Shown here piece by piece: positions 3,151 to 4,752 of a DNA stretch of 41,256 nt. The translations under genes and the position numbers were made by a program. The stretch is from Clostridia bacterium (GTDB lineage Bacteria > Bacillota > Clostridia > Oscillospirales > QAKW01), in assembly GCA_017436525.1 (NCBI GenBank), contig JAFSCX010000033.1, forward strand, positions 1 through 41,256, written 5' to 3'. The notes beneath the pieces were generated by a model, which saw only the letters and a list, made by a program, of their open reading frames with translations, was not told where the DNA came from and did no database searches. Each line of letters starts with the position of its first letter. Positions within the stretch are counted from its first letter, which is position 1.

Positions 3151-3179
3151 TTGCAATTTATTATTTTGTATGATAGAAT
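3151..3179 (+). promoter_or_regulatory. Promoter of the pnuC-like gene
   Basis: TTGCAA (3151-3156), 17-bp spacer, TAGAAT (3174-3179) with TG extension (3171-3172). Predicted start near 3186, giving a leader of about 95 nt. Confidence 0.75.
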
Positions 3180-3189
3180 GAGAAAAAAT

Positions 3190-3268
3190 AAACATCTGCC
3201 ACCGGGTAGCATCTGGCTTTCTCTCGTTAGGTCTTTGAAGAGGGAAGGGTCGGATGCTTTGTTTTTTA
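3190..3268 (+). ncRNA. Structured leader of the pnuC-like gene: candidate attenuator or riboswitch
   Basis: CTGCC/GGTAG can form a small hairpin (3197-3208). Then GCATCTGGC (3209-3217) pairs with GTCGGATGC and the preceding G (3249-3257) over nine pairs, extended by TTCTCTC (3219-3225) with GAGGGAA (3240-3246), and is followed by TTTGTTTTTT (3258-3267): an intrinsic terminator in the leader. CATCTG is duplicated (3193-3198 and 3210-3215), so CGGATG (3251-3256) could pair with either copy. This is a plausible switch between alternative folds. I do not recognise it as a known class. Confidence 0.55.
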
Positions 3269-3281
3269 TAGGAGGAAAGGC

Positions 3282-3962
3282 ATGAAAATCAAAGGATATT
3301 TTTCAAAAGGGGAGCAGCTTCTTTGGCTTGGCTCGGTATGGGGAATTCTGCTGGCCTTTTTTGTTTTCGGCGGAAAGGGAACATTTACTTTGATTGCTTC
3401 TTTGATCGGAGTAACCTCGCTGATCTTTAATGCCAAGGGCAACCCCTTCGGGCAGCTGCTGATGATTCTTTTCTCCCTTCTTTATGGGCTGATTTCTTGG
3501 AGCTTTTCTTATTACGGAGAGATGATCACCTATCTTGGGATGACAGCGCCCATGGCCCTCTTTGCGCTGATTTCATGGCTTAAAAACCCTTATAAAGGAA
3601 ATCGCGCAGAGGTGGCGGTCAATCGGCTGCGGGGGAGAGAATATCTTTGGATGCTGCTGCTTACCGCTGTAGTTACGATGGTTTTCTATTTTCTATTAAA
3701 GAGATTAGCCACCGCCAATCTTTTTTTCAGCACCCTTTCGGTTGCAACCAGCTTTATCGCTGTCTATCTTACCTTTCGCAGAAGCCCTTATTTTGCGCTG
3801 GCCTATGCTTCCAATGATATTGTATTAATTATTCTATGGCTGATGGCCGCCAAGGCGGATCGCTCTTATATCTCTGTAATTATATGCTTTCTTGCTTTTT
3901 TGATCAATGATCTTTATGGCTTTATCAATTGGAGGCAGATGCAAAAGCGGCAAAAGGCTTGA
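3282..3962 (+). CDS. pnuC: PnuC-family vitamin B3 (nicotinamide riboside/mononucleotide) transporter
   Basis: 226 residues with about seven membrane segments, the usual PnuC size. Characteristic segments are SLIFNAKGNPFGQLL (first half), RRSPYFALAYASNDIVLIILW and the C-terminal NDLYGFINWRQM. The family imports nicotinamide riboside or a related NAD precursor by facilitated diffusion, with trapping by phosphorylation inside. nadE follows 52 bases downstream, which supports an NAD role. Start set by GGAGGAAAGG at 3271-3280. A structured leader with a terminator precedes it, so expression is probably attenuated. Exact substrate is not determined by sequence alone. Confidence 0.85.
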   Translation: MKIKGYFSKGEQLLWLGSVWGILLAFFVFGGKGTFTLIASLIGVTSLIFNAKGNPFGQLLMILFSLLYGLISWSFSYYGEMITYLGMTAPMALFALISWLKNPYKGNRAEVAVNRLRGREYLWMLLLTAVVTMVFYFLLKRLATANLFFSTLSVATSFIAVYLTFRRSPYFALAYASNDIVLIILWLMAAKADRSYISVIICFLAFLINDLYGFINWRQMQKRQKA

Positions 3963-3987
3963 AAAGAGCAAAAAAATGGGATATAAT
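3959..3987 (+). promoter_or_regulatory. Internal promoter before nadE
   Basis: TTGAAA (3959-3964, overlapping the pnuC stop), 17-bp spacer, TATAAT (3982-3987). It would let nadE be expressed when the pnuC leader terminates. Confidence 0.7.
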
Positions 3988-4014: not shown

Positions 4015-4752
4015 ATGGCGATGTTTGATGCAGAGCGTATAAAAAACGAGTGTGTGGAATGGATTCGGGCCTTTTTTGAGAAAAACGGAAAAGGCTGCAA
4101 TGCGATTGTCGGAATCTCCGGCGGAAAGGATAGCTCCATTGCCGCCGCCCTTTGCGTGGAGGCTTTGGGGGCAGAGCGGGTGATCGGCGTATTGATGCCC
4201 CAAGGAGAGCAGCATGATATTGATATGGCATATCTGCTGGTAGATCACCTGGGAATCAAGCGGTATGAGGTCAATGTCAAAGCGGGAGTAGAGGGGATTT
4301 TGGAGAACCTGCCGAAGGATCTTGAGATTACGCCTCAGGCGAAGCAGAATCTTCCGCCCCGTATTCGGATGGCAACCCTTTATGCAGTCTCCCAAAGCTG
4401 CAACGGGCGTGTCTGCAATACCTGCAATCTTTCGGAAGACTGGGTAGGCTATTCCACCCGCTATGGGGATTCGGTAGGGGATTTCTCGCCTCTTTCCTTC
4501 CTCACCGTGACCGAAGTGAAGGAGATCGGCCGCCTGCTGGGCTTGCCTGCCGAATTGGTGGATAAGACCCCCATTGATGGCCTTTGCGGCAAGACGGATG
4601 AAGAGAATCTGGGCTTCACCTATGCAGAGCTGGATCGCTATATCCGCACCGGTGAGATCGAGGATGCGGCCAAAAAGGAAAATATCGACCGCCGCCACGC
4701 TCAAAATCTCTTTAAGCTGGAATTTATGCCCTGCTTTAAGCCTCAATTATAA
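4015..4752 (+). CDS. nadE: NAD+ synthase (ammonia- or glutamine-fed synthetase domain)
   Basis: 245 residues: a single ATP-pyrophosphatase synthetase domain, without the N-terminal glutaminase found in long NadE, so it probably uses ammonia. It converts nicotinate adenine dinucleotide to NAD+ with ATP. The P-loop is SGGKDSS (residues 35-41). Further family segments are CNTCNLSEDWVGYSTRYGD and KTPIDGLCGKTDEE. Ribosome binding site TAAAGGA at 4004-4010 fits the ATG at 4015; a second in-frame ATG at 4021 is possible. It forms an NAD module with the upstream transporter. Confidence 0.95.
   Translation: MAMFDAERIKNECVEWIRAFFEKNGKGCNAIVGISGGKDSSIAAALCVEALGAERVIGVLMPQGEQHDIDMAYLLVDHLGIKRYEVNVKAGVEGILENLPKDLEITPQAKQNLPPRIRMATLYAVSQSCNGRVCNTCNLSEDWVGYSTRYGDSVGDFSPLSFLTVTEVKEIGRLLGLPAELVDKTPIDGLCGKTDEENLGFTYAELDRYIRTGEIEDAAKKENIDRRHAQNLFKLEFMPCFKPQL

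Follow-up and report, generated by a model that had tools for sequence, protein, structure and literature searches.

The 41,256-nucleotide (nt) stretch of Clostridia bacterium contig JAFSCX010000033.1 analysed here (the window) carries a compact leader in front of a gene of the pnuC transporter family, with nadE as the next gene. From the letters alone, this leader had been predicted to be a possible undescribed riboswitch or attenuator of a pnuC–nadE operon with a nicotinamide adenine dinucleotide (NAD)-type ligand. We found that the regulatory RNA, at 3186-3267 with a promoter-like sequence (3151-3179) upstream and the pnuC start codon (3282) downstream, is indeed a transcription-attenuation riboswitch, but not an undescribed one: it is almost certainly a guanidine-IV riboswitch, which has its aptamer embedded in a terminator and acts as a transcriptional ON switch. 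The leader is not a new NAD sensor but a member of a riboswitch class published in 2020, when the pnuC association was reported too. The class was published by Lenkeit et al. 2020 and reportedly also by Salvail et al. 2020. The parts of the leader and the regulated gene, all on the forward (+) strand, are as follows.

3151..3179, +: promoter-like TTGCAA-17-TAGAAT with an extended -10 TG, probably driving the leader (9/12 in a consensus scan, which alone is no evidence of function)
3196..3209, +: P1 hairpin CUGCC-ACCG-GGUAG, 3196-3200 paired with 3205-3209 (5/5 pairs covary, 100 sequences)
3201-3203, +: P1 loop A3201 C3202 C3203, which forms the 5' side of the kissing-loop pseudoknot
3209..3257, +: terminator hairpin, with the outer stem GCAUCUG 3209-3215 paired to CGGAUGC 3251-3257 (lowest-energy fold)
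3220-3225 with 3240-3245, +: terminator inner stem (with the outer stem, 13/13 terminator pairs covary)
3226..3239, +: conserved terminator loop GUUAGGUCUUUGAA, in which G3230, G3231 and U3232 pair with C3203, C3202 and A3201 (loop-loop covariation)
3258..3267, +: intrinsic-terminator U-run (from the sequence; conserved in alignment A2 of relatives)
3270..3275, +: ribosome binding site AGGAGG (from the sequence)
3282..3962, +: pnuC-family transporter gene, the regulated gene (Pfam PF04973, 1e-34; TIGR01528; PDB 4qtn, 5.6e-16)

In the lowest-energy fold, the P1 hairpin is followed by the terminator hairpin with its 14-nt loop and then by the U-run, and the 83-nt leader was more stable than 200 of 200 dinucleotide shuffles (z -3.25). 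The predicted placement of a terminator directly before the ribosome binding site was thus borne out, with the hairpin ending at 3257, the U-run reaching 3267, AGGAGG at 3270-3275 and the ATG at 3282. G3209 belongs to both P1 and the outer terminator stem, so that the kissing state and the full terminator compete. CATCTG does occur twice, at 3194-3199 and 3210-3215, but the partner-switching role proposed for it did not stand; of the 100 aligned sequences, 1 carries the duplication, the window itself, so that the repeat is not the switching element.

We then searched for relatives of the leader. When 59 genomes were searched at the nucleotide level, clear matches turned up in other families, each of them containing the invariant blocks GCCACCGGGU and UUAGGUCUU. 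A first covariance model, built from 11 sequences, found the RNA in 110 of the 295 genomes searched from the same order. We aligned 100 distinct matches, in which 99% of the cells were paired, versus 81% in shuffles and 31-47% in slid controls, and compensatory double changes were found at 18 of 18 pairs, confirming the expectation that the paired regions are conserved in relatives. A second covariance model, built from those 100 sequences, had matches in 76 of the 341 genomes searched from the class and in 18 of the 299 genomes of a phylum sample, the window's own group included. Among the matches listed from a pattern scan of named genomes are Lachnospiraceae, Oscillospiraceae, Ruminococcus, Blautia, Clostridium, Veillonella, Trichococcus, Lentilactobacillus diolivorans and one Bacteroidota bin (Dysgonamonadaceae). 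Changes in the P1 loop go along with changes in the terminator loop: the combinations are ACC/GGU (76 of the 100 sequences), GCC/GGC (16) and AUC/GAU (2), with few exceptions. This covariation establishes a loop-loop pseudoknot. Conservation is higher in the terminator loop than in the stem. Pseudoknot and terminator together give a kissing-loop, terminator-embedded design.

Several relatives depart from this arrangement. A Blautia contig (L229) carries two riboswitch copies about 0.6 kb apart (888-981 and 1499-1592), the second of which has a broken kissing pair (CCAACGGG), and contig C140 of genome G111 (L039, L140) carries two copies about 3 kb apart. In one further genome (G155; L104 and L137), the terminator loop before a pnuC gene is intact, while the P1 hairpin seems to lack conserved sequence.

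The genes that follow the riboswitch at 226 distinct sites were 164 pnuC, 42 MATE, 4 SMR/SugE and 3 GNAT, with six single open reading frames (ORFs) unclassified and two short fragments not identified in this typing; the RNA also precedes NimA/pyridoxamine-oxidase-like proteins (L107, L109, L119, L124, L131 and L190) and a small transporter family. This gene set, together with the RNA architecture, led to the identification as guanidine-IV. The guanidine-IV riboswitch (GGAM-1 or mepA motif) consists of two hairpins joined by a pseudoknot, the 3' hairpin being a Rho-independent terminator (Lenkeit et al. 2020 NAR, PMC7736828; PMC12186494), and it is an ON switch, in which polymerase passes the terminator when guanidine is present (PMC7736828; PMC12186494). 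PnuC and MATE genes are commonly linked to GGAM-1 and were suggested to encode guanidine exporters (Lenkeit et al. 2020, PMC7736828). The window RNA agrees with this class in its two hairpins, its loop-loop pseudoknot, the terminator as second hairpin, the tested residues, the pnuC, MATE, SugE and GNAT genes and the occurrence in Firmicutes, and differs in its very short linker and in the adjoining nadE, which is private to the window genome.

The published key residues were also recovered. In C. botulinum, the mutationally tested residues are A29, C30, G71, U72 and G77, with the pairs 29-72 and 30-71 (PMC11611296), and these correspond to A3201, C3202, G3231, U3232 and G3237 of the window, with the same letters, pairing and within-loop spacing. 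The distance from 30 to 71 is 41 nt in C. botulinum and 29 nt in the window, because the linker of the latter has 1 nt instead of about 12. Furthermore, the rescuing double mutant A29G-U72C (PMC11611296) is the natural GCC/GGC variant among the relatives. The tested loop residues of L. lactis, G62, U63, G66, U67 and G72 (PMC7736828), likewise match the window, G3226 among them, with one 1-nt length difference that is also present in 12% of the relatives, and at all four tested guanidine-IV loop positions the window has the guanidine-IV letter. The SugE-linked leaders, scored with the same covariance model, gave 57-67 bits. The present analysis establishes the two hairpins, the pseudoknot and the terminator, as well as the conservation, the linked genes and the agreement with the published key residues.

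Some points weigh against the identification. Validated natural sequences are those of L. lactis, C. botulinum and R. timonensis, and the match to the class is based on residue letters, pairs and spacing as given in the papers; the P1-to-terminator linker has 1 nt versus a median of 12 (7 of the 100 members are as short), and a guanidine-IV variant with another ligand, Gd4v, exists (PMC9788692). That the window RNA is such a variant with changed ligand specificity, either Gd4v or a further pnuC-specific form, is nevertheless very improbable. Gd4v has the same overall architecture, MATE and GNAT genes and gut habitat (PMC9788692), and pnuC dominates in our set, as opposed to SugE in the published class; however, the core letters of the pnuC-linked leaders are identical to those of the SugE-linked leaders L285 (Lentilactobacillus diolivorans) and L327, one variable loop position excepted. 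Further marks of Gd4v are an additional hairpin, located on the terminator loop, and transaminase genes downstream in more than 50% of cases (Lenkeit et al. 2022, PMC9788692), whereas no such inserted hairpin was found in the 14-nt loop of the window (3226-3239), and no transaminase cluster, the main Gd4v gene, among the genes downstream of the 226 sites, the eight untyped ones being as given above. As a separate observation, one MATE-linked copy (L128, 1701-1807) has a terminator loop with an additional inserted hairpin, as in Gd4v. That the element is simply an intrinsic terminator, or an attenuator that depends on a protein and senses no ligand, is hardly conceivable: the hairpin and U-run do make a good terminator, but neither a loop more conserved than its stem nor a covarying pseudoknot with an upstream hairpin, which plays no part in termination, fits such a function. 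Among other riboswitches, the HMP-PP riboswitch (thiS motif; PMC6478431) shares the terminator-embedded aptamer with a pseudoknot and the ON direction, and differs in sequence, genes and ligand.

A new class sensing NAD+, nicotinamide mononucleotide or nicotinamide riboside in front of a pnuC–nadE operon, the idea behind the original prediction, is extremely unlikely, even though the downstream genes are annotated as PnuC and NadE and Rfam gave no match. The same RNA precedes MATE, SugE-type SMR, GNAT and NimA-like genes, its architecture and residues are those of guanidine-IV, and nadE follows a riboswitch-linked pnuC only in the window, so that the NAD-type ligand, which had rested on the gene names plus this non-conserved neighbour, was not upheld. 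The known NAD+-II riboswitch (pnuC motif) shares the position before pnuC, but its sequence and fold are unrelated, it acts on the ribosome binding site, and the discovery papers describe it from Streptococcus only (PMC7749635, PMC10085692). Its conserved core, GUUGCGUCC ... ACGGC ... UUAAAAACAAAAGGAGA, with the ribosome binding site in a pseudoknot (PMC10085692), was absent from the window leader, in agreement with the earlier view that the leader is not NAD+-II. NAD+-I and NAD+-II were both rejected by comparison with published descriptions, and a search of the literature library used found no paper on a third NAD+ riboswitch class. As for Rfam 15, neither the window leader nor 26 related loci, SugE-linked copies included, gave a match at the gathering score. 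The lack of a known-class match, which the prediction had implied, was thus reproduced but is uninformative; since even the SugE-linked copies of the same RNA went unmatched, it reflects a gap in the library and not novelty, and the guanidine-IV class seems to be absent from the searched copy.

For the guanidine-IV riboswitch of the window, the ligand, the switching direction and the linker model would follow by analogy with the published class. Without ligand, the outer stem 3209-3215/3251-3257 would close, the terminator would form and transcription would end in the U-run. In a transcript up to 3250, fold computation gave P1 and the inner terminator stem as formed and 3210-3216 as single-stranded, a state that permits kissing of the loops; the outer stem would compete once 3251-3257 is transcribed, drawing G3209 away from P1. 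Guanidine would stabilise the kissing of the P1 and terminator loops (A3201-U3232, C3202-G3231 and C3203-G3230), in which case the 7-nt strand 3210-3216 would have to stay unpaired to link the two hairpins, the outer stem could not close, or would be delayed, and polymerase would read into pnuC. In many relatives, the linker (alignment A2, columns 25-53) is complementary to the 5' arm of the terminator, as in GAATGC...GCATTC, above the level of re-dealt arms (mean 4.56 pairs versus 4.00, standard deviation 0.06), and may possibly form an extra antiterminator hairpin that the window is without. Since the window has no such linker, a linker antiterminator was ruled out as the general mechanism.

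Finally, the downstream genes were examined. Pfam matches confirmed the predicted identities of PnuC (PF04973) and NadE (PF02540), and two further features lie beyond pnuC.

3959..3987, +: promoter-like TTGAAA-17-TATAAT before nadE, sigma-70-like (11/12 consensus)
4015..4752, +: nadE, a neighbour gene probably outside any conserved regulon (PF02540, 3e-50)

The proposed pnuC–nadE operon was not supported: nadE stood beside a riboswitch-linked pnuC at 2 of 155 loci with at least 1.4 kb downstream, both of them the window's own sequence (the window and L217), and the near-perfect promoter-like sequence between the two genes points to separate transcription of nadE. Close homologues of the window PnuC (46-72% identity) were found in 25 genomes of a 98-genome sample of the order, and in 21 of the 25 the riboswitch immediately preceded the gene (E < 1e-10), one more showing only a degenerate trace, whereas none of three distant Pnu proteins (22-24% identity) had it, which fits a dedicated guanidine-linked clade. 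As proposed by Lenkeit et al. 2020 for riboswitch-linked PnuC (PMC7736828), a role in guanidine export is conceivable, and by analogy with this published speculation the window PnuC is probably not an importer of nicotinamide riboside but a transporter with a guanidine-related function. Whether the whole clade consists of dedicated Pnu-fold guanidinium exporters, mis-annotated as nicotinamide riboside importers, appears evenly balanced from sequence and gene context. In one genome, a riboswitch-linked pnuC (G077 C34, 15568-16237; L359 and L363) is broken by an in-frame stop or frameshift. A membrane protein family of about 227 amino acids also follows guanidine-IV-like RNAs (L061, L072, L118 and L123), one member (L072) scoring just at the cut-off of PF11139 SfLAP, and this family could possibly be a further guanidine-related transporter.

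As a riboswitch, the window leader is unremarkable, adding one more member to a published class whose gene association is published too. As long as Rfam 15, as searched, misses the class, leaders of this kind will continue to be reported as undescribed and to be misinterpreted from the name of the downstream gene. Care is also needed where PnuC is annotated as an importer of NAD precursors in gut Clostridia and this riboswitch lies upstream, as these proteins may handle guanidine.
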